Source: Caenorhabditis elegans (lineage: Eukaryota > Nematoda > Chromadorea > Rhabditida > Rhabditidae). From it: a stretch of DNA of 64,000 nucleotides. The stretch is taken from NCBI RefSeq assembly GCF_000002985.6, contig NC_003280.10, positions 3,530,501 through 3,594,500 of the forward strand, written 5' to 3'. This document shows positions 2,390-64,000 of this stretch, piece after piece. The notes under the pieces were generated by a model. The model was not told the origin of the DNA, ran no database searches, and saw only the letters and a list, made by a program, of their open reading frames with translations. Position numbers and translations under genes: made by a program. Position 1 is the first letter of the stretch. Each line of letters starts with the position of its first letter.

Positions 2390-5300
2390 TCAGGCTCGAG
2401 CGCAAATCTCCGAAACGTCTTGAATTATCGATTGAATTAGTTGCTCGTCGCCAGCTTTTCCGTCAATTTGAACACCGTCGGACTGAAAAATTGGGGGGTT
2501 TTTTGGGTGGAAAATTTCTAAAATAGGGAAATAATTCTTAAAAAATTGAACTATAATTTTCTGGCTAAAAAACTAAAATTTTGAAAAAAAAATTGGTTTT
2601 TTTTGCATTTTTTTTTTCAAAAATAGTGGAATTTTAATTCAAAAAAAAAATCGATTTATAATTTTTGAAAAATATTTTTTTCTTTTTTTCAATTTTTTTT
2701 TGTGCAGAACCTCAAAAAATGCCAAAAAGGTTTTCCAAACAATTTCAAATTTTCAGCTAGAGATTTTTGGTTAAAATAAAAACCTTTTTACCCAGTTTTT
2801 ACAAATTTTTATTGATTTTCTATTAAAAAATTTTTTTAATGAAAAATAAATAAGCACTGAAAATCACCTAAATAAAAATTTTTTTTTTTTTAATTTCAAA
2901 ACAATTTTTTTTGAATTTTAAAAACGTTTTAACTGTTTTAATTTTTGATTTAAATCTCACTAAACCATTTTTTTTTCTAAAAATACACCTAAACTTCCCT
3001 GAAACCCTGCTTACCGTTTTCTTAACCAACAAACAAATTGGCTCTCCACCAACAGTTCTTCCAAACAACGAAGCGGCTTTCGGCGTCTCCTCGACAATTG
3101 AAAAATGAGCTTTTCGTACAATTTGTGTGAGCACCGTCTTCAGCTTCACTTCTCCGGTTGCCACATTCTGTGTGGCTCCAAAATCCACGTCATCAGAGGC
3201 TAAAAGTGCCGAATAGTCGTCTTTTCGAATGCTGGAGTTGGGCATTACAAAGACTGTGGCGGGAATTGGCAGACGGAGATCAAGCTTGTCGTCACGTGTT
3301 CCTTCGTCGTCCTGGAATTTTGGGGAAATTTCGGATTTTTCAGAAAAAAAATTGGGGAATTTTTTCTTCGATTTTTGTTATTTTTTCTGCATTTTAAAAT
3401 AATTTTTTGAATTTTTTATTTCCATTTTCCAAATTTTCACTATTTTTTACGACATTTATGCGCATTTTCTCGAAATTTAAACAACTTTGAGATTTTCCAA
3501 ATTTTTTTTAATTTAAAAAAAAATTAAATATTCCATCAAATTTTTATGGTAAATTTCAAAATTTTAAAGAATTTTTAGCAAGAAAATTTTTTTTTCAAAT
3601 TTAGATTTTTCACAACTTTTTTCAAATTTTTTGTAACAAAAAAAAGGGGTTTCGATTTTTTTTTTCGGGATATGGTTTTAAAAATTAAAAATTTTGGGTT
3701 TTTTTCAATATTTTTCCGGAATTATTTTTATTTATATTAAGAATTCTATTTTTTGGGAAAATTCTGAAATTTTGATTTTTTTTTGGATTTTCAAAATTTA
3801 GGATTACATTTTTGTGAAATTTCTAATGAGATTTTCAAAAAAAAAAATTTTGAAATTTTTTTTCCAGAAAATCAGAAAATTCCAGGTATTTTGGCTAACA
3901 AATTTAATTTCCAAAAAATTAGTAAAAATTTTGAGAAATTGTATTTTATTTCCTATTTTATAGATTTTTTCCTAATCTTCAAAAAAAATTTTTTAACTGT
4001 TTTTTGAAAATTTTTCTGTCTTCCGGAAATTTAGCCAGTTTAAATTCAATTTTTCCATTCCCGTACCACTAAAAAGTAGGTCAGTGTTCCTCTCATTGTC
4101 CGTGACACGTTGGTAGCGGTAACCTGCACATCAAACGAAGCTTCTGATGACGTGGCATCCGAATCGAGCTCCTCGGCAAGCAGAATCGGGTCCTGCAACG
4201 ATGTTTTATCGGTTTTAAGGGAGAAAAAAATTCTGAAAATTTTTATTTTTCAAAATTCTGTAATTTTCAGTTTTTCTAAAAAAAAGTGTTTTTTTTTTAA
4301 ATTTTTAAATACAAATTTTTCTCCAGAATTTTTAAATTTTTTGTCTAAAATTATCTATCAAAAAATAATTTCTGAAGTTTAAAATTAATTTTTTTCTAAA
4401 ATTTTTATTTAAAAAAATTTGGAATTTTTTTTTTTCTAAAATAAATTATTTTTTGAAATTTCCATTTTTTAAAAATTTTCTGAAATATCCAATTTTCTAT
4501 TCAATTTTTTAAATTAATTTTTTTCTAAAAAATTCAAATTTCCCGCTACCTCCGACTCCTTGAGCACTTTCGCATTCAACGTATCCACCATATTCAGCTC
4601 AATTTTTCGAATTTTCTCCTTATGCTCCTTCCTGGAAACTCTCAAATGCACAGTGAGCCGCCCATGATCCAGCGGATCGCAGTTGGGTCTCGCCACGAAA
4701 TCCACGTAGATCGTCTTGTTGGCGGCGAGTCTACAGTACTCTGATGACGTGGCGGCTTCTGAGTCAATTGGGCTCGGTTGATGGGGAATTGATGGTGTAC
4801 AGACGCCTGATGTCTCCTCGTATGCCTCGCGGACCTTCTTTTTTGAAGAAATTGCCGATTTTTTCAGCTTTTTCGGCTTTTCCACCTGGAAAATTAGAGG
4901 AATTGGGATTTTTAAATTTTTTTTCTGTGAAAAAACTTTTTAAAAACTCCTTTTTTTGGCTCTATTTTTACTTTAAAAAAGGCTCTTTAAAATAAAAATT
5001 TCAGATTTTTACATGCAAAAAAACTAATTTTTCGATTTTTTGTATTTATAAATTGGGTGAAAATTCCAAAGAATTGCAATGGAATTTCAGCAAATGTTGA
5101 GCAAATTTTAGAAAATTGCTAGAAATTTTCTGAAAATGCTCAAAATGTTCAAAAATGCTCAAAAATTGCTTAACATTTTTAAAAATTTCTCCAAAATGTT
5201 TGCCATTTTTCTTGAAAAAATCTATAAAATACTTAAAAAATATTTAAAAGAAAATGCTTAAAATTGCTCAAAATGCTCCAAAATGTTCAAAAATGCACAA

Positions 5301-8300: not shown

Positions 8301-11300
8301 TGTTTATTCTGAAAATAAAAAATCGATAAAATATCGGAAAAAAATTGAAAAATGTCACAAAATTTAATATAATTTTTTTAGAATATTTTTTTAATCTAAA
8401 AAAATTTCCTCCATCCATTGAGCCAAGTACTTCTTTATCTTTAAAAAATAGCCTTATAAATATAAATTTTTAAATAAAATACTATGAAAAAATCGATGGA
8501 AAACTCCTGTTACAGTACTCTTTAAAGGCGCATGCTCGTTGGTATTTTACAAAAAATTGTCGTGCCGAGACCGGGTACCGTAATTTTGGCGCGAAAATTC
8601 AAATTTTATAAAATGGTTCAATTTTCGACAAGAAAAAAAAACTTCCGGCTGGAATTTCGAGAATTTTGGGAATAAATTTCCAAAATGTTTACGATTTTTT
8701 AAAAAATATTCTGACATTTTCCAAGAAAACTGTATTTTTTTCCAGATTATCGCGTTTTTAAATTAAAAAATAACGTTTTTCTTGCAATTTTTTTTAGTTT
8801 TCCGTTTTTTTTTCGAGAAATTTCCAAAAGGTAGTTTTTTTTTTTACTTTTTGGCAGAAATTTATATATTTTCTTGTGGTTTTTATTTGTTTTTTTTTTC
8901 TATTTTTTTCAAAAAATATCCGAATTTCACCAAATGTTTGAGATTTTCTCTGAAAAAATATATCGGAAAATTAAAAAAAAAATTCCAATTTTTTTTCTAA
9001 AAATATCCGATTTTTCACCAAATTTTCCAATTTTTTCTGAAATTTTTTCGATTTTTTTCAGTAAATTTTCCGATTTTTCAATGAATTTTCCAATTTTCTC
9101 TTTAAAAAAATACCGGAAAATTCGAAAAAAAATCTGATTTTTTCGAAAAATTGCAGATTTTTCACGAAATTTTCCGATTTTCTCTGAAAAATATCAGATT
9201 TTTCAGTAAATTTTCCAATTTTTTTCAGAATTTTTTCGATTTTTTAAAGAAAAATATCCGAATTTCGCTAAATTTTCCAATTTTCTCTGAGTAGAAATAT
9301 CGGAAAATCAAAAAAAAATTTCCAATTTTTTCGAAAAAATGGCAGATTTTTCAGTAAATGTTCCAATTCTTTTCTGAAACTTTTTCGATTTTTTTTCCAA
9401 AAAATATTCGATTTTTCAATGAATTTTCCAATTTTCTCTGAAAAAACATCAGAAAATCAAAAAATATCAGATTTTTTTTTGAATTTTTCGATTTTTTTTC
9501 TGAAATTTTCTCGATTTTTTAAAGAAAAATATCCGAATTTCACTAAATTTTACGATTTTATCTTAAAAAAAATATCGGAAAATCGAAAAATGTCCATTTT
9601 TTCACTAAATTTTCCGATTTTTTCTGAACATTTTTTTTGATTTTTTACCTTAACATAATAGGGATTATTCTCAATCTCCTGTTCCCTCAACTTCCGTCTT
9701 TTCTCAATTTCCTCTTTGCTCATCGCAATTTCAGCCCCATTCTTCCCCTTTTTCTTCTTCCCTCCACCGAGCTCCTCCAGGTCCTGCACCACCGGCTCCT
9801 GCTCCTCATTCTCGAGCATTTTCGGTCGGGTAGCCGGTGCTCCGAACATCTCCTCAATATCCGATTCATCATCCGATTCGTCTTCAGAAGCAGCGGCCCA
9901 CTCCTCACCAATCCATGCATCTAGATCCAGGCCATCCGGTACTGGAACCTTTCGCTGAGCTTTTGTAGCCACTGGATTAAGCTCCCCATCATAGAGCTTC
10001 TGAACTTCGGAGCCCATTTTTTGACGGTCTTGGTGGAGCTTCTCAACGATCCGTATGATAGCCATCAGGTTACAGGCTCTCTCCTGAGCTTCTAGATGCT
10101 CGGAGAGCTCGAATTGTGGAAGTTTCGAGAGCATAAGGTTGTCGAGACTATCTATAGCATCCCAATCGTCTTCCTCTTCGGCTTGAGACATTAGGGAGCA
10201 GTAGAGTTTTCCAATGTTCTGAACGTAAACCGACAGAATGTGGCCGGGCATCACGGATGGTTTCGCTTTGAGCATTGATTCGAGCACACCTTGTTGATTA
10301 CGGACGTGTCTGAAAAATAGAAATTTTGGTGAAAAATTGGAACTTTTTTGGGATTTTTTGGTAAAAAACTGGAATTTTTACACATTTTTTTTAAAATGAA
10401 AAACTCAATTTTTTAGGATTTTTTTCAATAAAAAAATCGGATTTTTTTGGGAATTTTAAGTGGAAAAATTTGATTTTCTGAATGATTTTTTAAAATTTTG
10501 AATCGGATTTTTTTGGGAATTTTTGGTGAAAAATTTGCAATTTATAGGAACTTTTTTAATAAAAAAAATTAGATTTTTTCTCGGCTCGCGGATCCACTTA
10601 CTGGCTATATTCTCCACAAATCCAAGCGGCCGCTAGGAGCACTTCACACATATTGCTCCGTTGTTGAGCCGAGCCGGCGAGCAAAACATGAGCATTTTCG
10701 ACGAGAAGAGCCATTTGAGAGACGGAAAAGTGACGAATTGACTCGACACGTACGGTTACATCTTGGATCTGGAAAATTGGGGGAAAATTTTTGAGAAAAT
10801 TGGAAAAAAATGGATTTTTCTGAAAAAAATTTAAAATTTGGTCTAAATTGACAGTTTTTGGCGAAATTTGATATTTTTTGACGAAAGTTGGTGGAAATTG
10901 ATGATTTTTGAAGAAAGTAGACATTTTTTGGCAAAATTTGGGAATTTGTGGCGAAAATTGGTGATTTTTGACCAAAGTTGGTGAAAATTTGTAATTTTTG
11001 GCGAAATTTAGCAATTTTTTGGCGAAAGTTGTCGAAATTAAACAATTTTTGACAATTTTCAACGAAAGTTGTAGAAAATTGCCAATTTTTTGGAGAAAGT
11101 TGATAATTTTCAGCAAAAGTTGGTAAAAATTGGAAATTTTTGGCAATTTTGGCGAAAATTGACAATTTTTAACGAAAGTTGGTAAAAGTTAGTCATTTTT
11201 CGCGAAAGTTGGTGAAAATTGGCGATTTTTTGGCCAAAATTATCAACTTTCGACAACTTTTGGCAAAAATTGACTTTTTCGCCATTTTTCCTTTTTTTTT

Positions 11301-26989: not shown

Positions 26990-29900
26990 ATGCCACGTCA
27001 TAACCATTTCATCCTTCAATGCCTACTCCTCCTCTGCCTCCTCTTCACCTGCCTCGACTCCAGACGACGTGGCCAATCTGGCCGAACATTTGAGGACTCG
27101 AAAGCCGAAGAACGCCATTTCGATTTCAAAGCGGCTCCTGGCGAGGAAGCTGCGGAGGAAGTCGAGGAGAAGCCCAAGATTGTGCTCGCGTCGAAAGGGG
27201 ATAGTGGGAGTACTGTAGCGACTACGGTAGCTCCGAAGGTAGAAGTGGAAGAGGAGGCAACGACGCAGTCCACTGAAGATTGTGAGTTTTTGAGACCATA
27301 TCGGTAAACGATAGTTGTTCTGCTGTCAGATTAACACCAGCCATCCTATAATCTAAAACTCGCGAGAACGTTGAAAGAGCTTTAGAAGTGCTCCAAGTGA
27401 TGTTTGACAATGCCAGTATACATGAAGGATTTTCACTGGAAACACCTAAAACCATGGAATTTATTGTGAAAATTGTAGGGGCAGAAATCTAAAATTTTCC
27501 TTCTTTTGATTTTAGGCTCGGGGACTGGGGAGAAGATTGTAGTAGAAGAAAACTCAGGGAAGATGAAATATGGGTTCATATCGGTTTCAATGACGTCTGG
27601 AAGTGATATTTTTTGTAGTTTCAACACGCTTAGCGGACCAAATAACAGCCTAAACTCGCTAAACTGAGTATCCCCAAACAGGCATATCTCGAAAACTACA
27701 CGTCTAGGAAACAAATGTTCAACTAACAAAATAATTTAAAATATTTGTTCTTTCTATTGCATTAATTTTTATTTTAATACACCAACTTTTCGCAGAGTTA
27801 CACAAAGTCAAAGCCACTTTTCCAAAATTCACAAAAAAATTTGAGAACTCTTTTGTTGTACCCGTAATAACCCAACTTCCATTGAATTTCAAAAAACAAA
27901 TGTTGTTGAATAATGAGTAAAAAATATTTCTCCACATTTTATTAGTTTTAAGATTTTTGATATTATCATGTTCCGCCAAGTTACAGACAGTTTTCTGAAA
28001 AAATCCATTTTTGCTCATAAAACTCTTCATATCCAACGTAGAAACTTAAAATTTTGAAAAATGCTCTTTTTTTTGAGGTCTCTACAATGTCCTAAAAAAT
28101 CTTTCAAAAAATCCTGTCCATCTCCAAAATCGTCCTTCGCTCTCAAAAACGAAAGTGGACCTTTGCCTTCCGAAAAATGGGCGAAAAAATTAAAATGCGA
28201 TTTTTTGGTCGAAAAAAATATTTTTAGAAATCTGAGAACACGCTATTTACGAATTTTATGTTCATTTTAGGAGATTCCTTTTCTGAAATGACCTAAAAAT
28301 TAATCAAAAAGAACATAATTTTAATTCTCACGTGTAATTTTTTTAAATTTGCATTAAAACAATTGAAGCACTGAGCAAATTACCAAATAATTACACGTGA
28401 GAATTAAAATTATGTTCTTTTTGTTTAATTTTTAGGTCATTTCAGAAAAGGAATGATCTAAAATGAATATGAAATTCGTAAATAGCGTGTTCTCAGCTTT
28501 CTAAAAATATTTTTTTCGACCCAAAAATCGCAATTTCGTTTTTTCGTCCATTTTTCGAAAAGCAAAAGTCCCTTTTCTTATTTTGGAGCGGAGGACGATT
28601 TTGGAGATGGACAGTGTTTTTTGAAAGATTTTGTAGGACATTGTACAGACCTCAAAAAAGTGAACATTTTTCAAAATTTCAAGTCGATACGTTGGATATG
28701 AAGAGTTTTATGAGCAAAAATGGATTTTTTCAGAAAACGGTCTATAACTTGGTGGAACATAGGAATATCAAAAAATTTTCAACTGGTAAAATGTGGAGAA
28801 ATATTTTTAACTTATTATTCAACAAAAGTTATTTTTTGAAATTTAATGGAAGTTGAGTTATAAAGGGTACAACAAAAGAGTTCTCAAAATTTTTTGTGAT
28901 TTTTGGGAAAATGGCTTTGACGCTGTGTAACTCTACAAATAGTTGGTGTATTAAAAGAAAAATTAGTGTGCAAGAAAGAAAAAATATTTCTAAACATTTT
29001 GTTAATAAAACAATTGTTTAGTAGACGTGTAGTTTTTGAGATACGCCAGTTTGAAGATACTTAGTTTAGCGAGTTTAGGAGCTTATTTGGCCCGCTGTGC
29101 ATTTTTTCCTATACTTTCATTTTTTCAAAGTACCTTCTGATGCCCGATGACGTTCACCAATTTATTTATTTGAATACGTAAAACACATAAAAATTTATTT
29201 ATCAACTATCGCTCTTCCAACTTACATGCTCCAATTATTGTGTTGAGTGCTAGATTATTCTGGAAATTACTAACATATAATTTTACATTTTAACACTCCT
29301 CAACCCTCTAACCTTCTTGAACCCGGTCCACATCTCTGCTCCACATGTCTCCGTGATCTCCTTCTGCATGCACCCATGCTTCCCGAAAAAGTTCTCACAC
29401 GCCACTTTCTGAATCTCTGCCATTTTCACCTTATCCGGAATCTCTTTCGGGTAGGGATTCCAGTTTTTAGAGCACTCTGATGCTCTAGCGTCTAGTAGTA
29501 TTTGGCAAGGGATAAACTGTTTTGAGAAGAACTGAACGGTATCGCAGAACATGAGGGTTATGTTGACAGCGTAGACGAATTTTTGTTCGATCAGGCAATC
29601 GAGTGTGCGGCGGCAACGGTTGAACTTTCCACAGTTTTCGATCATTTTTGTGGTGCTGGTTTTGTTGGAGATATTGAAGCCTTTTGCGTTGTCACCCAGT
29701 TCGATGAAAACATGAAAAGACTAATGTTGAGTATTTTTAAGACTGCTGCAACCTAGTTCCTTCTGTTTTTAGGCTAATCTTATGGAATTATTCAAGTAAT
29801 GTCACCAAATGTCGCGAAATGTATTTCAAAATTTTTTAAAAATTTTTCCACCGCCCAGCTTCAGCCTGAGACTGAGCCTAAGCCTGAAACTTCCCATCGA

Positions 29901-48531: not shown

Positions 48532-49582
48532 TGGAATAATCTAATTGTTCATGTTGTTTAAATAAACGTTGAAAAATGTTAGAAAATGTTGGGTTTCTGA
48601 TAACAGCGTAGCCGACATATAGATCAGGGGAGCCGCCTGAGAGTTGCGAGGGAGATTGCTCCTGTGAGCGTTTCCTGACTTTCATACCGAAGAACTGAGA
48701 TTTGGAAAATAAATTCCAGCGTCGAGAATCGATATTTCGTCAGATTCAATTTCGACGCTTCAGTTTCCGGTTGGGAGAACGTCGGAATCCACTAATAAAA
48801 ATCGAAAGGGAATGCCCCCATAGCAGCACTAGATTCCAGATTCATCCTAGGTTAAGAAGCATATGTATTACTCAATTTTCTTAATTGATTTAAATAGGGC
48901 TCCCATGAGGTCGCCGCAACGGTGCCTGCGCCAGCCTCAACGGTCGCAACGCCGCATTTACACGGTACCACGGACCCGCTGGCCTAACCCGCACTTCGCG
49001 CCTCATTCAGCTGGGAGCCCTAGATCCAAGATCTCATAGATGCCAGTGACTCCAAGTTTATCCAGATTTGAGGTGTTGAAAGTTGATTCATTTCGTTCTT
49101 TCGCCTATCTACCTTGGCCAGACGTGGGCTAGAACCTTCGGCATTGCCCCATACATTGGATCTGCCTTTTAAGAGTTCTCGAGAATCTGCGGGAGTCGTC
49201 GAACTTCTACCTAATCTTTGAGGGAATGTAGTTCCAAAATGTAGACAACGAGGAAAGGGAGAGCGATTAGATTTGACAGGGCTCTGAACAATTGCGTGCC
49301 TACAGAGTAGACCAAACTTGCCTTGAAGCCTTGAAGATGACGTTTGATGAAACAGCGGAGACCTTCAAGTGGATGGTTAATGAGGCTCAGCAAAGAAAGA
49401 TCAACGGGGAAGTTCAACAAGGAAGTTCAAAAATATTACAGTTCCTTATCGAGAACACCGACAGCAGAACTAGACCGATCAACTATGGGAGCACAATAAA
49501 CTACGAGATCAAAAAGATTCCTATAAAAAAGAGCGGATAGACGCCAGTATCTTCACCAAGATTCTGGGTCAGACCTCCAAAT
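48532..49582. other. Intergenic region of unusual, less AT-rich composition
   Basis: From ~48590 the base composition changes from AT-rich to near-balanced, without the usual A/T runs. A 125-bp segment is bounded by inverted GGGCTCCCA (48897-48906) and TGGGAGCCC (49011-49020). An 82-codon frame at 49292-49540 (CLEALKMTFDETAETFKWMVNE and following) is not recognised. It could be a decayed retroelement or gene fragment. No family is claimed. Confidence 0.4.
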
Positions 49583-51551: not shown

Positions 51552-52957
51552 ATGAGTTGGCCAGACCTTATCAATACTACCTGCCGGGAAAACTACACCT
51601 ACTTTGACTCTTCGGATTACCTACGCAATGCATATCATGTCACAGCAATATTTACAGTCCCTCTTTCAATTCTGGCATTTTATATAATATTAAAAAAGAC
51701 TCTAAGTAGAATGAAAACCATGAAAGTGCCTCTTTTAATATTTCATTTTTGGAGCACAAACCTTGATTTAATGTTCACCGTATACACGGCTCCCTATATA
51801 TTCATCCCGACCGCTTCTGGGATAACACTCGGAGTTCTAGGATGGCTGGGTGTCAGAGTCAGATGGCAGGCCTACTGGGGTCACTTTTCTGTGATGAGTA
51901 GGTGACCAATAGGCTCTAGGGAAACAATTACGCTGCCTTAAAAATTTTCAGTGCTCGGTGTGAGCTTCATAATATTGTATGAAAACCGACAAAGTCAAAT
52001 TTCAACGGTGAAGTTTAAAATCCAAGGGAAACAAACTCGTATATTATATTTTGCCTTTAAAAGTGTATTCTCGTTTTTTATATTGCTTCCATTCTATATA
52101 AATAACTCGGATCAGGTGGAGTTGAGGAAAACCGTGTTAAAGGTACATTCAGCGGTTAGCAATCCCCACATTTTTTGATTACAGCAAATACCGTGCCCCA
52201 CGATCGAGTTTTTTGACTCCAAAACATATGTCCTATTGGAACCAGACGAAATCCTCCCGTTATTTTCTAATATTATCGGATTTGGGGGTATTCTTGCTGA
52301 GGTGCTTTTCTTCCTATTTCACACTGTATACCATCTGACGATGGTAGGGAACACATCAATTTCAGAGTCAACAAGAAAAATGCAGAGGAAGTTTTTGAAA
52401 TATGTCTCGTTACAGGTATGTTACAGGATGATCAGTTGTTGTAATTAGTAGGTCACTGTGTTAACTAGTTTTTAAAGTACAAATTCCCAGTAGCCCTACA
52501 TTTTCACAGTAGTCCAGTTTATAATGTGCACATAGGACCTTCTAAAATATGTTTAACCAGAAATCTAAAACAAGGTAGTTTCAGATCTCAATTCCCTTGA
52601 TAGCAATTGTGTTCCCAGTCTTATTCTCTTTGTATGCGGGCACGATGAGCTATTATAATCAAGGTAAGCTTTAAACACGGAAGTTTTAATGGGTTCGACG
52701 TGAAAAACTGATATTTTTTGAGGCTTTACTTATAATTTAATCTAGATGGATATTCCAATAGGAACAGGTGAATTTTAACGTTAAAGTTTTCAGCAGCTAA
52801 CAACAACGCGATGATAATTATGGCTAATCACGGATTGCTGAGCACCTGCTGCACACTTTCCATCTATCAACCGTATAGAGGTTTTATTTTGGGCAAATTA
52901 ACAGGAAATCCGGTGGAAGTATCCCCAGTGAACATAATACCAGTTATTTCTTCATGA
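51552..52957 (+). CDS. Srh-type chemoreceptor GPCR, copy 1
   Basis: Five exons (51552-51897, 51952-52142, 52185-52415, 52585-52663, 52794-52957) encode 336 residues, the usual length for serpentine receptor class H. N-terminal NTTCRENYTYFDSSDYL is the extracellular start. TM1 follows (FTVPLSILAFYIIL), then KTLSRMKTMKVPLLIFHFW between TM1 and TM2. Later come a conserved PCPTIEFFDSKTYVLL loop, MQRKFLKYVSLQISIPLIAI before TM6, and the TM7 region ANHGLLSTCCTLSIYQPYR. The PYR ending is typical of the Srh/Str superfamily. These genes are usually chemosensory; the ligand is unknown. The frame and all splice sites are intact. It is the first of a tandem series with the same exon lengths (346, 191, 231, 79, 164). 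Confidence 0.92.
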
Positions 52958-53273: not shown

Positions 53274-53591
53274 GACTTTATCAATACTACCTGCCGGGAA
53301 AACTACACCTATTTTTTCAATTCCCCGGATAGCAGTCGCTTTACTAATTTTTATTCAATGTACGTAGATAAGACGAACTATTACAATCAAGGTGAGGAGT
53401 TTGACTAGATCCTTGCTTTAAAAAACGTTCCAGCTCTCAACAACCGTGCTATGATAATTATGGCGAATCATAGATTATTAAGCACCTGCTGCATTCTTTT
53501 TATTTATAAACCCTATCGGAATTTTATTATCAGTAAATTAACAAGGAAGCTGGTGAGAAAACGAAACGGGACATCAGTTACTTCTTTATAA
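53274..53591 (+). pseudogene. Internally deleted Srh relic (exon 1 start fused to exons 4-5)
   Basis: Begins with the exon-1 motif INTTCRENYTYF but passes abruptly, near 53314, into exon-4 sequence (TCAATTCCCCGGATAGCA), which ends at 53391 with a donor site. A spliceable exon 5 follows (53434-53591: LNNRAMIIMANHRLLSTCC, IYKPYR). Everything from TM1 to TM5 is missing, and the original ATG context has been lost. The break is a direct join within a few bases, indicating a single deletion of ~1 kb in a once complete copy. Confidence 0.88.
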
Positions 53592-53946: not shown

Positions 53947-55549
53947 ATGACTTGGCCAAACCTTATCAATTCTACCTGCCGAGAAAACTACACCTACTTT
54001 GACTCTTCGGATTACCTACGCAATGCATATCATGTCACAGCAATATTTACAGTCCCACTATCAATTCTGACATTTTATATAATATTAAAAAAGACCCCGA
54101 GTAGAATGAAAACCATGAAAGTGCCACTTTTAATATCCCATGCTTCGAGCACAAACCTTGATTTAATGTTTACCGTATACTCAGCCCCCTATGCATTTTT
54201 CCCGACCGCTTCTGGAAAATCACTAGGAGTTCTAGGATGGCTCGGTGTCGGAGTCAGATGGCAGGCCTATTGGGGTCATTTTTCTGTGATGAGTAGGTGC
54301 CCAGAGGCTATAGGGAACAAACGTTATGCATTGTTAAATTTTCAGTGCTCGGTGTGAGCTTCATCATTTTGTATGAAAACCGGCAGAGTCAAATTTCGAC
54401 GGTGAAGTTTAAAATCCAAAGGAAACAAACTCGTATTTTATATTTTGCCTGTAGATATTTATTCTCGTTTGTTATATTGCTTCCATTCTATATAGATGGC
54501 TCGGATCAGGTCGTGTTAAGGAAATCCGTGTTAAAGGTACATATCAATCAGCAGTCTGGAGGTCGCGAGTTTAAGTCCGGCCTCACCCCCTAGGTTCACC
54601 CAGCCTCTATTGGGAAGTGGAGCAATCCACGACTGGATTATCGGCCACAGTCCCCGGCTAGGACGTGGCTTAAATTACAGCCCAGTGGGATCACCACCAG
54701 GCAGTGTACCTGAATCCCAGATCCGCAGTGCATAGCACTTGAAGGACGGATCGTCCTTTAATCCTTTAATCCTTTAATTTTTTATTTCAGCAAATCCCGT
54801 GTCCCACAATTGAATTTTTTGATTCCCAAACCTATGTCTTATTGAGACCAGACGAAATCCTCCCGCTATTTTCAAATATTATCGGATTCGGGGGTATTCT
54901 TGCTGAGATCTTTTTCTTCCTATTTCACACTGTATACCATCTAACAATGGTAGGGAACACATCGACTTCAGAGACAACGAAAAAAATGCAGAGGAAGTTT
55001 TTGAAGATTGTCTCGTTGCAGGTAGGATCAGTTGTTATTGCCTATACATTTTGATAATTCATAATAGTCACAGTGTTAACTAGTTTTTAAAGTAAAAATT
55101 CCCTGTAGCCCTTCACATTTTCTACAGTAGTCCAGTTGTGTTTAATCAGAAATCTAAGACGAGGTAGTTTCAGATCTCAATTCCCTTGATAGCAATTGCC
55201 TTGCCAGTCTTATTCACTTTGTATGCGGGCACGATGAGCTATTATAATCAAGGTAAGCTTTAAACACGGAAGTTTTAATGGGTTCAACGTGAAAAAAGTG
55301 ATATTTTTCTTGAGTCTTTACTTATAATTTAATCTAGATGGATTTTCCAATAGAAACAGGTGAATTTCAACGTTAAAGTTTTCAGCTGCTAACAACAACG
55401 CGATGATAATTATGGCTAATCACGGATTGCTGAGCACCTGCTGCACACTTTTTATCTATCAACCGTATAGGGATTTTATTATGAGAAAATTAACAGGAAG
55501 TCCGGTGGAAGAAATACCAGTGGCCACAATACAAGTTATTTCTTTATGA
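53947..55549 (+). CDS. Srh-type chemoreceptor GPCR, copy 2
   Basis: Exons 53947-54292, 54346-54536, 54791-55021, 55174-55252 and 55386-55549 give 336 residues, in frame throughout, with the same exon lengths as copy 1. Motifs: NSTCRENYTYFDSSDYL, KTPSRMKTMKVPLLISHASS, QIPCPTIEFFDSQTYVLL, MQRKFLKIVSLQ, NHGLLSTCCTLFIYQPYR. Intron 2 (254 bp) is enlarged by a retroelement-like insertion (54549-54780) that leaves both splice sites intact. The upstream region and ATG context match copy 1. The function is presumed chemosensory, from family membership only. Confidence 0.92.
54549..54780 (+). mobile_element. SINE-like insertion with tRNA-type B box and TTTAATCC tail
   Basis: Absent from intron 2 of the paralogous genes. 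Near its start it has GGTCGCGAGTTTAAGTCCGG, resembling a polymerase III B box. It is less AT-rich than the flanks and ends in a short tandem tail (CCTTTAATCCTTTAATCCTT). The tail and composition suggest a non-LTR (RTE-like) or SINE 3' end. The exact family is not recognised. Confidence 0.6.
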
Positions 55550-55988: not shown

Positions 55989-57449
55989 ATGAATTGGCCA
56001 GACCTTATCAATTCTACCTGCCGAGAAAACTACACCTACTTTGACTCTTCGGATTACCTACGCAATGCATATCATGTCACAGCAATATTTACAGTCCCAC
56101 TATCAATTCTAACATTTTATATCATTTTGAAAAAGACTTCAAGTAAAATGAAAACCATGAAAGTGCCACTTTTAATATTTCATTTTTGGAGCACAAATCT
56201 TGATTTAATGTTTACCCTATACTCAGCCCCCTATATATTTTTCCCAAGCACATCTGGGACACCACTTGGAGTTCTAGGATGGCTGGGTGTCGGAGTCAAA
56301 TGGCAGGCCTATTGGGGTCAGTATTCTGTGATGAGTAGGTGCACATAGGCTATAGGGAACAAACGTTATGCATCGTTAAATTTTCAGTGCTCGGTGTGAG
56401 CTTCATCATCTTGTATGAAAACCGGCAGAGTCAAATTTCAACGGTGAAACTTAAAATTGAGAGAAAACAAACTCGTATACTATATTTTGCGTTTAAATGT
56501 TTATTTTCGTTTGTTATATTGCTTCCATTCTATATAAATAACACGGATCAGATGGAGTTGAGGAAAACCGTGTTAAAGGTATATTTAGTGGTGAGCAATA
56601 GGCTTCCGATTGGTCACTTTTTCATTATTACCACATATTTTCAATTCAACAAATCCCGTGTCCCACGATCGAATTTTTTGACTCCAAAACATATGTCCTA
56701 TTGGAACCAGACGAAATCCTCCCGTTATTTTCAAATATTATCGGATTTGGGGGTATTCTTGCTGAGATGTTTTTCTTTTTATTTCACACTGTATACCATC
56801 TAACAATGGTAGGGAGCACATCAATTTCAGAGACAACAAGAAAAATGCAGAGGAAGTTTTTGAAGAATGTCTCGTTGCAGGTAGGATCAGTTGTTGTAAT
56901 TAGTAGGTCACTGTGTTAACTAGTTTTTAAAGTACAAATTCCCAGTAGCCCTACATTTTCACAGTAGTCCAGTTTATAATGTGCACATAGGACCTTCTAA
57001 AATATGTTTAACCAGAAATCTAAAGCAAGGTAGTTTCAGATCTCAATTCCCTTGATAGCAATTGTGTTCCCAGTCTTATTCTCTTTGTATGCGGGTAAGA
57101 TGAACTATTATAATCAAGGTAACTTTTTTTCTAATGTTTCTACCCTCTTTCTAATGCTTGGAAGTTTCAACGGTTTTGACTTGAAAAATGTGATATTTTC
57201 TTGAGTCATACCTTATAATTGAATCTAGAACAAGGCCTTTCAATATAAACCCCTATCAGGTGAATTTCAACGATAGTGTTTTTAGCTGCTAACAACAACG
57301 TGATGCTAGTTATGGCTAATCATGGATTGCTGAACAACTGCTGCACACTTTTCATCTATAAACCTTATAGGGATTTTATTATGAGCAAATCAATCGGAAA
57401 GCCGGCGGAAGAAAGAATAGTGGCAATAATACCAGTTGTTTCTTTATGA
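55989..57449 (+). CDS. Srh-type chemoreceptor GPCR, copy 3 (intron-2 acceptor lost)
   Basis: Exons by homology: 55989-56334, 56388-56578, 56650-56880, 57040-57118, 57286-57449, each the family-standard length and open. The acceptor before exon 3 is defective. The paralogues have CAG before the exon, while this copy reads TTCAATTCAAC with no AG at the junction. The nearest upstream AGs would leave an intron of only ~20-35 nt. Without a functional acceptor, the message would retain the intron or skip the exon. The coding motifs (NSTCRENYTYF, KMKTMKVPLLIFHFW, PCPTIEFFDSKTYVLL, HGLLNNCCTLFIYKPYR) are otherwise preserved, so inactivation is recent or splicing uses an unusual site. Confidence 0.75.
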
Positions 57450-57782
57450 TTTAAAATTTATCAATTATTTTTGAACCAATAAATGGTTATGGGATGATTT
57501 TTTCTAGTTAATTGGACGTTTGATGTAGAAAGGAACACTTCGAGTTTTGTAAAATCAATGGAAAATTGTTCCCCAGTTATCTCAAAGATTGGGAGTTCTT
57601 GATGTTTGCACTATGGCATTTGTCGGCGACAGCTGAAAATGTTTCAAAGTACACAAAAGAGAAGAATTTCTGCAAAACTTGAAATAAACCTTATTTTTAG
57701 TTCAAATAAGTTGAGCTGAAGTTTGTATTAATGTTGTTTTTTTCTCTATCTTTTTCTAGTTTTCAGATCATTCAAATATACA

Positions 57783-59221
57783 ATGACTTGGCCGGACCTT
57801 ATCAATTCTACATGCCGAGAAAACTACACCTACTTTGACTCTTCGGATTACCTGCGCAATGCATATCATGTCACAGCAATATTCACAGTCCCTCTATCAA
57901 TTCTAACATTTTATATAATATTAAAAAAGACTCCGAGTAGAATGGAACCCATGAAAATGCCACTTTTAATATCTCATGCTTCGAGCACAAACCTTGATTT
58001 AATGTTCACCGTATACTCGGCTCCATATATATTTTTCCCGACCGCTTCTGGAACAACACTTGGAGTTCTAGGAAGGCTGGGTGTCGGAGTCAAATGGCAG
58101 GCCTATTGGGGTCAGGTTTCTGTTCTGAGTAGGTGTCTAGGGAAACAATTATACAGCTTAAAAATTTTCAGTGCTTGGTGTGAGCTTTATCATGTTGTAT
58201 GAAAACCGGCAGAGTCAAATTTCAACGGTGAAGTTTAAGATAAAAAGGAAAGAAACTCGAATATTATATTATGCTGCAAACTATTTATTTTCATTTACTG
58301 TGATGGTTTCATTCTATATACATAACTCGGATCAGGTGGAGTTGAGGAAGTTTGCGTTTAAGGTACATTTGCTGACCATTCAGCGAGGAGCAATAGGCGT
58401 GGATACTTGCGCTGATTGGTCGCCTATTTCATATGCCCACCAATCAGTGACAAGCAACAGGCGTGGCTACCGCCGTTGATTGGTCGCCATCCACCAGTAA
58501 ATATATTTCGTCTCAGAAAATCCCTTGTCCCACTATTGAATTTTTCGATTCCAAAACATATGTCCTATTGAAAAGTGGAGAAGTTATCCCGCTCATATCA
58601 ACTATTAGCGGATTTGTGTGTATTGGTGTTCAGACGTTTTTCTTTCTATTCCATACTATATACCATCTAACGTGTGTCGGAAGCGCAACGGTTTCAGAGT
58701 CAGCAAAAAAGCTGCAGAGGATGTTTTTGAAGATTGTTTCGGTTCAGGTATGATATCTTTAATCAGTAGTAGGTCACAGTGAAAATTGGTTTTTGAAGTA
58801 CTAACTATCAGAAGCTCTAGCCTATATTTGTGAATATTGCTCGGTAGTTTCAGATTTCAATTCCCTTGATAGCAATTGTCCTCCCAGTTTTATACTCGAT
58901 GTATGCGGATAACACGAGCTATTATAATCAAGGTAACTTTTTTTGAAAATTTTACTACCCTCTTTCGAAAGTTCGGAAGTTTTAACTTTTTTGAATTGAG
59001 AAAGTAATATTTTTCTTGACTCATAGCTTATAATTTAAATTAGAACAAGGAAGGTCTTTCAATAGAAATACAACCAGGTAAATTTTGAATTTAATTTTTT
59101 TTCAGCAGCTAACAACAACGCGATGATAGTTATGGCTAATCATGGATTGCTGAGCACCTGCTGCACACTTCTTATCTATAAACCTTATAGGGATTTCATT
59201 ATGAGCAAATTCATTTTTTGA
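57783..59221 (+). CDS. Srh-type chemoreceptor GPCR, copy 4 (left palindrome arm)
   Basis: Exons 57783-58128, 58172-58362, 58517-58747, 58854-58932 and 59106-59221 encode 320 residues. It is the most diverged copy: exon 3 reads KIPCPTIEFFDSKTYVLLKSGEVIPLISTISGF and exon 4 ends YADNTSYYNQ. The last exon stops early after YRDFIMSKFIF, about 16 residues short of its paralogues, but past TM7 and the PYR motif, so it is probably still functional. Intron 2 holds a repeated ATTGGTCGCC/CCAATCAG block. The whole gene lies in the palindrome and has an identical mirror copy at 61551-62989. Confidence 0.9.
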
Positions 59222-60358
59222 TTTATCAATTATATTTGAATAAATGTTCACACAATAACGAAATATGTTGCTCCCGCATGTGTTGCTCCGTACCATCTGC
59301 TGTCTGCGTCTATCGAGTCAGAACTAGTCTCCGCCTTCCCACCGGGCAATGCGTAAAAACAAAGAGACCGGACACTCCCTAGGCCATTCGGTTCTCTGTG
59401 ACTCCTTGTGTTGGGGTCTTGTATTCTTTTTTCCTGTTTTTCTGGTTTTTAAAGTTCTGTGTGGTGTGAAAAAAAAACGAGGTAAGTATTGAATTAAAAA
59501 TGTACATTTTTTAAAGCTATTTATTTGATACCTTTTAATAGTTTTCTTTTGTGGGTTTTTGCTCTAAATGGTAGAATACAGTCCCAATATACTGAATATA
59601 AATGTAAAAAAAAATTCTAAATTTTTTATGATTTTTTAAAAAATTTTGAAACAATTAATTAAAATTTTTTTTTCTTTTTCTTCTTTGTTTTTTTTTAATT
59701 TGAAACATAGTTTGTCAATTTTTCAGACATATTTCAATTAGTTTCGCCGTAAAATGCGAAAATGTCAAAGTGACTCACGGTGTGGATTTTTTAACAAACA
59801 ATCAAAAAAACATGTTCCAAGAATTAATTCATTCTTAACCATTGCGTGACACGTGGCATTTTTTTGAGTTTTTTTATGGATTTCAGCTGTTTTAAATCAG
59901 CTAACTTTCAGCTTTGTTTCAGTTTTTCTTCAATTTTTTTTTTGGATTATCAAAGTTGACAGCATTTTCAAGTAAGACATAAAGAAAAAATTAGAACAAC
60001 ACATTCTGTAATAGAAGAAAACAACGACAAAGTATGTATATCTTGCGCCAGGAAAAGTCCTCTAACTGACCATTGGGCCCACAACTTTTTTTAAAAATTT
60101 ATCATTCTGATAATTAGATGTCTGGTTATAATACTAGCATATTTTTAAAATTTTTCTATGTCTAGTTTTTGAGAAAATGTAGGTAGTTGTGAAAAAATGG
60201 TGGTTCCCCTAACAGGGGAAGGATCTCAAAGAATCCTTAGAAATCTGTTACGTCATAACATATATTTGATAGATGATGATTACAGATAATCACTCCAAAA
60301 AAATTAGCTGTTTTAAAGCAAGTTCAACTAAATTACAGCGTTTTAAAGTTGACTAAAA
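59222..60358. other. Non-genic inner part of the left palindrome arm
   Basis: The boundary after the receptor is abrupt. 59290-59480 is less AT-rich (CCCACCGGGCAATGCG, ACCGGACACTCCCTAGGCC) and ends AAACGAGGTAAGT, which looks like a 5' splice donor of a non-coding first exon. After that the sequence is AT-rich, with GTTCCCCTAACAGGGGAA at ~60203. No reading frame is supported. The mirror is 60414-61550. Confidence 0.5.
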
Positions 60359-61550
60359 TGCGCTTCTTTTGAACAGTAAAAGTGTTGATTTTTTGAATTA
60401 AAATATGAAGACTTTTTAGTCAACTTTAAAACGCTGTAATTTAGTTGAACTTGCTTTAAAACAGCTAATTTTTTTGGAGTGATTATCTGTAATCATCATC
60501 TATCAAATATATGTTATGACGTAACAGATTTCTAAGGATTCTTTGAGATCCTTCCCCTGTTAGGGGAACCACCATTTTTTCACAACTACCTACATTTTCT
60601 CAAAAACTAGACATAGAAAAATTTTAAAAATATGCTAGTATTATAACCAGACATCTAATTATCAGAATGATAAATTTTTAAAAAAAGTTGTGGGCCCAAT
60701 GGTCAGTTAGAGGACTTTTCCTGGCGCAAGATATACATACTTTGTCGTTGTTTTCTTCTATTACAGAATGTGTTGTTCTAATTTTTTCTTTATGTCTTAC
60801 TTGAAAATGCTGTCAACTTTGATAATCCAAAAAAAAAATTGAAGAAAAACTGAAACAAAGCTGAAAGTTAGCTGATTTAAAACAGCTGAAATCCATAAAA
60901 AAACTCAAAAAAATGCCACGTGTCACGCAATGGTTAAGAATGAATTAATTCTTGGAACATGTTTTTTTGATTGTTTGTTAAAAAATCCACACCGTGAGTC
61001 ACTTTGACATTTTCGCATTTTACGGCGAAACTAATTGAAATATGTCTGAAAAATTGACAAACTATGTTTCAAATTAAAAAAAAACAAAGAAGAAAAAGAA
61101 AAAAAAATTTTAATTAATTGTTTCAAAATTTTTTAAAAAATCATAAAAAATTTAGAATTTTTTTTTACATTTATATTCAGTATATTGGGACTGTATTCTA
61201 CCATTTAGAGCAAAAACCCACAAAAGAAAACTATTAAAAGGTATCAAATAAATAGCTTTAAAAAATGTACATTTTTAATTCAATACTTACCTCGTTTTTT
61301 TTTCACACCACACAGAACTTTAAAAACCAGAAAAACAGGAAAAAAGAATACAAGACCCCAACACAAGGAGTCACAGAGAACCGAATGGCCTAGGGAGTGT
61401 CCGGTCTCTTTGTTTTTACGCATTGCCCGGTGGGAAGGCGGAGACTAGTTCTGACTCGATAGACGCAGACAGCAGATGGTACGGAGCAACACATGCGGGA
61501 GCAACATATTTCGTTATTGTGTGAACATTTATTCAAATATAATTGATAAA

Positions 61551-62989
61551 TCAAAAAATGAATTTGCTCATAATGAAATCCCTATAAGGTTTATAGATAA
61601 GAAGTGTGCAGCAGGTGCTCAGCAATCCATGATTAGCCATAACTATCATCGCGTTGTTGTTAGCTGCTGAAAAAAAATTAAATTCAAAATTTACCTGGTT
61701 GTATTTCTATTGAAAGACCTTCCTTGTTCTAATTTAAATTATAAGCTATGAGTCAAGAAAAATATTACTTTCTCAATTCAAAAAAGTTAAAACTTCCGAA
61801 CTTTCGAAAGAGGGTAGTAAAATTTTCAAAAAAAGTTACCTTGATTATAATAGCTCGTGTTATCCGCATACATCGAGTATAAAACTGGGAGGACAATTGC
61901 TATCAAGGGAATTGAAATCTGAAACTACCGAGCAATATTCACAAATATAGGCTAGAGCTTCTGATAGTTAGTACTTCAAAAACCAATTTTCACTGTGACC
62001 TACTACTGATTAAAGATATCATACCTGAACCGAAACAATCTTCAAAAACATCCTCTGCAGCTTTTTTGCTGACTCTGAAACCGTTGCGCTTCCGACACAC
62101 GTTAGATGGTATATAGTATGGAATAGAAAGAAAAACGTCTGAACACCAATACACACAAATCCGCTAATAGTTGATATGAGCGGGATAACTTCTCCACTTT
62201 TCAATAGGACATATGTTTTGGAATCGAAAAATTCAATAGTGGGACAAGGGATTTTCTGAGACGAAATATATTTACTGGTGGATGGCGACCAATCAACGGC
62301 GGTAGCCACGCCTGTTGCTTGTCACTGATTGGTGGGCATATGAAATAGGCGACCAATCAGCGCAAGTATCCACGCCTATTGCTCCTCGCTGAATGGTCAG
62401 CAAATGTACCTTAAACGCAAACTTCCTCAACTCCACCTGATCCGAGTTATGTATATAGAATGAAACCATCACAGTAAATGAAAATAAATAGTTTGCAGCA
62501 TAATATAATATTCGAGTTTCTTTCCTTTTTATCTTAAACTTCACCGTTGAAATTTGACTCTGCCGGTTTTCATACAACATGATAAAGCTCACACCAAGCA
62601 CTGAAAATTTTTAAGCTGTATAATTGTTTCCCTAGACACCTACTCAGAACAGAAACCTGACCCCAATAGGCCTGCCATTTGACTCCGACACCCAGCCTTC
62701 CTAGAACTCCAAGTGTTGTTCCAGAAGCGGTCGGGAAAAATATATATGGAGCCGAGTATACGGTGAACATTAAATCAAGGTTTGTGCTCGAAGCATGAGA
62801 TATTAAAAGTGGCATTTTCATGGGTTCCATTCTACTCGGAGTCTTTTTTAATATTATATAAAATGTTAGAATTGATAGAGGGACTGTGAATATTGCTGTG
62901 ACATGATATGCATTGCGCAGGTAATCCGAAGAGTCAAAGTAGGTGTAGTTTTCTCGGCATGTAGAATTGATAAGGTCCGGCCAAGTCAT
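61551..62989 (-). CDS. Srh-type chemoreceptor GPCR, copy 4' (right palindrome arm)
   Basis: Mirror image of the gene at 57783-59221. Exons 62989-62644, 62600-62410, 62255-62025, 61918-61840 and 61666-61551, with the same 320-residue product and no difference seen in the translated exons or the short stretches compared by eye. The two genes are tail-to-tail across the 55-bp spacer. If the palindrome is genuine, this is a second functional copy. If it is an assembly artefact, this gene does not exist separately. Confidence 0.8.
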
Positions 62990-63322
62990 TGTATATTTGA
63001 ATGATCTGAAAACTAGAAAAAGATAGAGAAAAAAACAACATTAATACAAACTTCAGCTCAACTTATTTGAACTAAAAATAAGGTTTATTTCAAGTTTTGC
63101 AGAAATTCTTCTCTTTTGTGTACTTTGAAACATTTTCAGCTGTCGCCGACAAATGCCATAGTGCAAACATCAAGAACTCCCAATCTTTGAGATAACTGGG
63201 GAACAATTTTCCATTGATTTTACAAAACTCGAAGTGTTCCTTTCTACATCAAACGTCCAATTAACTAGAAAAAATCATCCCATAACCATTTATTGGTTCA
63301 AAAATAATTGATAAATTTTAAA

Positions 63323-64000
63323 TCATAAAGAAACAACTGGTATTATTGCCACTATTCTTTCTTCCGCCGGCTTTCCGATTGATTTGCTCATAATAAAATC
63401 CCTATAAGGTTTATAGATGAAAAGTGTGCAGCAGTTGTTCAGCAATCCATGATTAGCCATAACTAGCATCACGTTGTTGTTAGCAGCTAAAAACACTATC
63501 GTTGAAATTCACCTGATAGGGGTTTATATTGAAAGGCCTTGTTCTAGATTCAATTATAAGGTATGACTCAAGAAAATATCACATTTTTCAAGTCAAAACC
63601 GTTGAAACTTCCAAGCATTAGAAAGAGGGTAGAAACATTAGAAAAAAAGTTACCTTGATTATAATAGTTCATCTTACCCGCATACAAAGAGAATAAGACT
63701 GGGAACACAATTGCTATCAAGGGAATTGAGATCTGAAACTACCTTGCTTTAGATTTCTGGTTAAACATATTTTAGAAGGTCCTATGTGCACATTATAAAC
63801 TGGACTACTGTGAAAATGTAGGGCTACTGGGAATTTGTACTTTAAAAACTAGTTAACACAGTGACCTACTAATTACAACAACTGATCCTACCTGCAACGA
63901 GACATTCTTCAAAAACTTCCTCTGCATTTTTCTTGTTGTCTCTGAAATTGATGTGCTCCCTACCATTGTTAGATGGTATACAGTGTGAAATAAAAAGAAA
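63323..64000 (-). CDS. Srh-type chemoreceptor GPCR, copy 3' (partial, runs off window)
   Basis: Mirror image of the 3' part of copy 3: exon 5 at 63486-63323, exon 4 at 63732-63654, and part of exon 3 from 64000 to 63892. The first two exons and the defective intron-2 acceptor would lie beyond the window edge. The sequence present is open and identical to its partner by translation. It is truncated only by the window. Confidence 0.8.

Follow-up and report, generated by a model that had tools for sequence, protein, structure and literature searches.

Long inverted repeats that carry mirror-image pairs of paralogous genes, in convergent or divergent orientation, were described in Caenorhabditis by Zhao et al. 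in 2007, with arms that are up to 100% identical and that include the intergenic DNA (PMC1803023). One of these, the F44E5.4/F44E5.5 locus, has 2207-bp arms with 99.7% identity around a 126-bp spacer (PMC1803023). Similarly, a table of C. elegans tandem duplicons (minimum length 1 kb, identity above 90%) lists 22 of 31 as inverted; in 17 of these 22 as many bases match as the first copy is long, which we take to mean that the copies do not differ, and for 4 of the 22 the arms measure about 3.4-5.3 kb (PMC2728738 Table 2). Newborn C. elegans duplicates are reported to be frequently adjacent and inverted (PMC2728529), and two laboratory lineages of N2 are reported to differ by two duplications in inverted orientation, one of 5.4 kb and one of 12.9 kb (PMC10634987). 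In the broader C. elegans set of Semple and Wolfe, as quoted in PMC3966223, 84% of adjacent pairs share the same orientation. Outside the nematodes, 11 gene blocks of the springtail Folsomia candida have been described as palindromes (PMC5490193). Based on the inverted duplicates reported in PMC2728738, PMC2728529 and PMC10634987, perfectly matching inverted gene duplicates are ordinary in a related genome.

The DNA considered here, a window of 64,000 nt without any N, ends in a palindrome. Positions whose coordinates add up to 120772 are complementary at 3587 of 3587 positions per arm, such that the left arm (56772-60358, forward strand) pairs with the right arm (60414-64000, reverse strand) without a single mismatch or indel, and all mismatches found in the pairing scan are confined to the central spacer (60359-60413). 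This spacer is 55 nt long, has a GC content of 27%, and is single-copy, its longest exact match elsewhere within the window being 16 nt. The arm length of 3587 bp is a minimum, as the right arm is clipped at the window end, position 56772 merely mirrors position 64000, and the outer boundary lies beyond the window. The first-pass annotation had proposed a palindrome with the same coordinate sum, arms free of indels over 3587 bp each and a 55-nt spacer, and the pairing scan bears out all of these points. A tandem-repeat scan from position 49000 onward yielded four entries, with none inside the arms, and an Rfam scan of the window at gathering threshold found only two tRNAs and nothing in the palindrome. 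ARAGORN, run with bacterial settings, listed a third tRNA at 9284-9380.

The arms carry chemoreceptor genes. Splice models of four full-length copies, here called c1 to c4 in their order along the forward strand, were built from the sequence alone. The copy that lies entirely within the left arm, c4 (57783-59221, + strand), has five exons (57783-58128, 58172-58362, 58517-58747, 58854-58932 and 59106-59221) separated by GT-AG introns, and its model encodes an intact product of 320 aa. This product matches the Pfam profile PF10318 (7TM_GPCR_Srh) with E=3.5e-92, over residues 19-319 and profile positions 1-301 of 302, and the related families match much more weakly (Sri 3.7e-19, Srd 5.3e-12). By this whole-protein match, the best among the related families, c4 is assigned to the Srh family. 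Nine proteins were scanned in all, of which c4, two adaptin pieces and one DUF19 protein were matched and five had no match; both Srh and DUF19 are families typical of nematodes. The shortest introns in the models measure 42-54 nt, and together with the two families they suggest a nematode akin to Caenorhabditis. The identity of the arms places a second, identical copy of c4 at 61551-62989 on the - strand, convergent with the first. The earlier description of the genes as tail-to-tail thus holds for c4 and its mirror (57783-59221 on the + strand against 62989-61551 on the - strand), as does the claim that one receptor is doubled, c4 being intact in each arm, to which at least the 3' part of a neighboring gene has to be added.

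This neighbor, c3 (55989-57449, + strand), enters the visible left arm with its 3' part, from 56772 on, and the mirror of that part occupies 63323-64000 on the - strand, where it is clipped by the window end. Upstream lie two further tandem copies on the + strand, c2 (53947-55549) and c1 (51552-52957), each with an intact model of 336 aa. The profile scan covered c4 alone among the four, and c1, c2 and c3 are assigned to Srh by their likeness to it (76, 79 and 76% amino acid identity, respectively). Across the six pairs of tandem copies the proteins are 76-87% identical, and c4 is 76-79% identical to c1-c3, versus 100% DNA identity between the arms. The acceptor of intron 2 in c3 (56640-56650) reads AA where the models of c1, c2 and c4 have AG; because the c3 model reads through only with an intron that ends in AA rather than AG, c3 may have been recently damaged at this splice site and may be spliced abnormally. 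Two fragments between c1 and c2, at 53274-53315 and 53427-53539, match a receptor start and a last exon, respectively, and by this similarity they are probably the relic of another Srh copy. Relatives of c4 were also sought in collections that are not meant for nematodes: 12 pattern matches to the protein in viral contigs yielded none that tblastn confirmed, and exact searches of viral contigs with a 49-mer of the arm end, and of prokaryote genomes with a 40-mer of arm and spacer, gave no match.

What is unusual about this locus is the very short spacer rather than the identity of its arms. All 22 inverted duplicons in Table 2 of PMC2728738 have spacers of 446-4709 nt, and a spacer of 55 nt is 8 times below the shortest of these (446 nt), with the proviso that the boundaries in that table were set from gene models and that the listed spacers may exceed the true ones. 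In a survey of perfect inverted repeats in 118,019 genomes, arms thousands of bases long are reported to be nearly confined to bacteria, but the survey was limited to spacers of up to 8 nt and hence does not cover the 55-nt case (PMC13155455). A closer match in scale is found in yeast, where inverted junctions are reported to form where inverted repeats of 2-14 bp already exist, the majority of them spanning 40-80 bp (PMC10766183). The 55-nt spacer falls within this range, which applies to the repeat plus its spacer in foldback and ODIRA junctions. A short loop of this kind would suit foldback at a short inverted repeat, whether this occurred in the animal itself or while the library was being made.

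The reading that we favor, with a confidence only a little above even, is that a very recent foldback inverted segmental duplication took place at the downstream end of the tandem Srh cluster. From the exact arms and the short, single-copy, AT-rich spacer, which support this reading, we infer the following mechanism. At a short inverted repeat with a separation of about 55 nt, roughly 1.1 kb downstream of c4, a nascent or resected strand would have folded back or changed to another template; synthesis would then have run in reverse through c4 and into c3, at least part of which was copied. The outcome would be an exact mirror copy flanking a single-copy 55-nt loop, in a duplication that is too young to have acquired any substitution or indel, and the functional consequence would simply be the doubling of the c4 receptor gene. 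Inverted duplications of this type have been described in worms before, and the present one would not represent a new phenomenon.

The main rival is a foldback artefact, in which a chimera that runs out and back along one molecule, either a read or a product of amplification, was assembled, so that the true chromosome would continue elsewhere past the spacer. We consider this a serious contender, if the less probable of the two. On inspection, an artefact and a young duplication look alike: both account for perfect arm identity, the agreement between arms of all 14 homopolymers of at least 7 nt (14/14) would equally be expected if a single molecule had been read out and back, and a perfect palindrome that is nearly devoid of a spacer is also what a foldback artefact would yield, so that these last two properties count against the duplication. 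Foldback reads are reported to account for about 0.55-0.6% of the genomic reads from ONT and to recur at the same places, but PacBio HiFi data are reported to contain virtually none (PMC12870357). Likewise, after whole-genome amplification, palindromes are reported in 40-50% of PacBio reads from Arabidopsis and in 11.8% of those from the gorilla Y, against just 0.5% palindromic reads in an unamplified control (PMC6218980). The near absence of foldback reads from HiFi data and their low frequency in the unamplified control indicate that the artefact is rare outside certain libraries. Further arguing against it, the inverted duplicons of the long-finished C. elegans genome are similar in identity and arm length (PMC2728738). 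The longest string that the spacer shares with the PacBio SMRTbell adapter is 6 nt; the absence of the adapter removes one type of artefact only. The weighing of a duplication against a foldback artefact rests on priors.

The perfect identity of the arms, by itself, is no evidence of a special mechanism. From mutation accumulation in C. elegans, substitutions are put at 1.84e-9 and indels at 0.68e-9 per site per generation (PMC8727991 Table 1), and copy-number gains are reported at 2.64e-6 per gene per generation, as compared to that substitution rate per site (PMC8727991). On the assumption that the C. elegans mutation rate holds for the source species, the absence of differences in 3587 bp caps the age, at the 95% level, at about 227,000 generations when only substitutions are counted, and at about 172,000 generations when 0.32 indels per substitution are included. 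As these rates allow zero differences, the identity requires neither ongoing conversion nor an artefact, but merely a young duplication. The first-pass annotation had offered a recent duplication, arm-to-arm conversion and a foldback artefact as the possible explanations; this set was the correct one, but identity was given too much weight, since zero differences over this length fit a duplication of any age below roughly 10^5 generations, and the 17 inverted C. elegans pairs mentioned above (PMC2728738) also match at every base. An allelic haplotype placed in reverse, a further conceivable source of a mirrored sequence, is hard to square with zero differences and is unlikely.

Identity need not imply youth, either. 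Although its arms are 100% identical, the C. elegans hsp16 inverted repeat is judged ancient by Zhao et al., because the same structure is present in C. remanei, and the maintenance of gene palindromes in Caenorhabditis, hsp16 included, has been proposed (PMC1803023). Modelled on the hsp16 and F44E5.4/F44E5.5 loci and on Y-chromosome palindromes, the palindrome described here could be an older inverted repeat in which arm-to-arm gene conversion preserves the identity of the arms. Conversion is reported to occur between paralogs in inverted orientation (PMC3966223), and there are signs of exchange close by: c1 and c3 are 99-100% identical in two neighboring 100-column windows of their alignment and 75-97% in their others, and c1 and c2 are 99% identical in the next 100-column window. 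In coordinates, 52430-52672 of c1 and 56885-57127 of c3 are 98% identical, versus 85% for the two proteins overall. Because the tandem copies are mosaic in this way, exchange probably acts within the tandem Srh cluster. Conversion tracts that survive in Caenorhabditis are reported as mostly 50-200 bp, with a listed range of up to 2958 bp (PMC3966223), whereas the identity of the arms runs without a difference through introns, intergenic DNA and the entire visible arm. Given tracts of 50-200 bp, 3587 bp without a difference would demand frequent or very long conversion events, and we regard maintenance by conversion as improbable.

The palindrome is not the only inverted structure in the window. 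A search for inverted repeats of at least 100 bp and at least 85% identity was followed by refinement of four that lie outside the receptor cluster, which range from 98.8 to 86.2% identity. The most similar of these has 663-bp arms (17532-18194/18410-19072) that are 98.8% identical, with 8 mismatches and no gaps, around a 215-nt spacer, and is possibly a mobile element. A region of about 1.47 kb (27632-29096) can be aligned over its full length to its reverse complement, at 86.2% identity, and is either an older palindrome or a palindromic mobile element. The other two are found at 1556-1777 (88.4%) and 5306-5439/5701-5832 (90.3%). As the inverted repeats outside the receptor cluster all carry mismatches, the pairing of the palindrome arms is far beyond chance. 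These repeats are inverted structures native to the DNA and as such lend weak support to a duplication, but they may be mobile elements, and their possibly mobile-element-like nature also speaks for a reading in which the palindrome itself is a mobile element, bounded by long terminal inverted repeats, into which receptor genes were captured. The 55 nt between the arms leave no room there for a transposase, the left arm runs unbroken into the tandem cluster, and the central 1.1 kb, its mirror apart, does not recur in full within the window, all of which render a mobile element very improbable.

If the palindrome is present in the worm chromosome, as we infer, it would be a fresh gene palindrome with a center that has not yet been reshaped. 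It could then show how a receptor cluster grows by inverted duplication, and it could reveal how fast such palindromes lose their symmetry. If it is an artefact, the assembly contains a false extra receptor gene that is to be removed. A more speculative consequence would be that transcription across the center yields an RNA that folds into a hairpin, the stem of which could reach 3.6 kb or more, and that this RNA feeds small-RNA silencing of the entire Srh cluster, with its copies of 76-87% protein identity; if true, this would be a natural RNAi switch arising from an inverted receptor duplication. Compatible with this idea, recent duplicates are reported to be enriched among the targets of ERI-6/7 siRNAs, and the same report describes finding no terminal inverted repeats at ERI-6/7 target loci (PMC3213143). 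As an AATAAA is located at 59239, 18 nt past the c4 stop codon, read-through across the center is not expected, and we give the hairpin hardly any credence.

The locus shares different properties with each of the systems to which it can be compared. As in the yeast foldback and ODIRA junctions (PMC10766183), an inverted junction surrounds a short loop; the pre-existing inverted repeat is a feature of the yeast junctions as reported there, and no triplication is seen within the window. The C. elegans duplicons of PMC2728738 resemble it in their mostly inverted orientation and, for 17 of the 22 inverted pairs, in the complete matching of their copies, although no row of Table 2 in that paper shares both its arm length and its spacing. 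The lack of such a row makes it doubtful that the window comes from C. elegans N2 itself, with the proviso that the table was drawn up from gene models. One pair in that paper likewise has 3587 matching bases, which we take to be a coincidence, since the figure is set here by the window end and the published pair has a 1245-bp spacer. With the long inverted repeats of Zhao et al. (PMC1803023) it has in common adjacent paralogs in opposite orientation, within near-identical arms that include intergenic DNA. Compared with those loci, the palindrome described here involves the Srh family, has a shorter spacer (55 nt), and has longer visible arms (at least 3587 bp).
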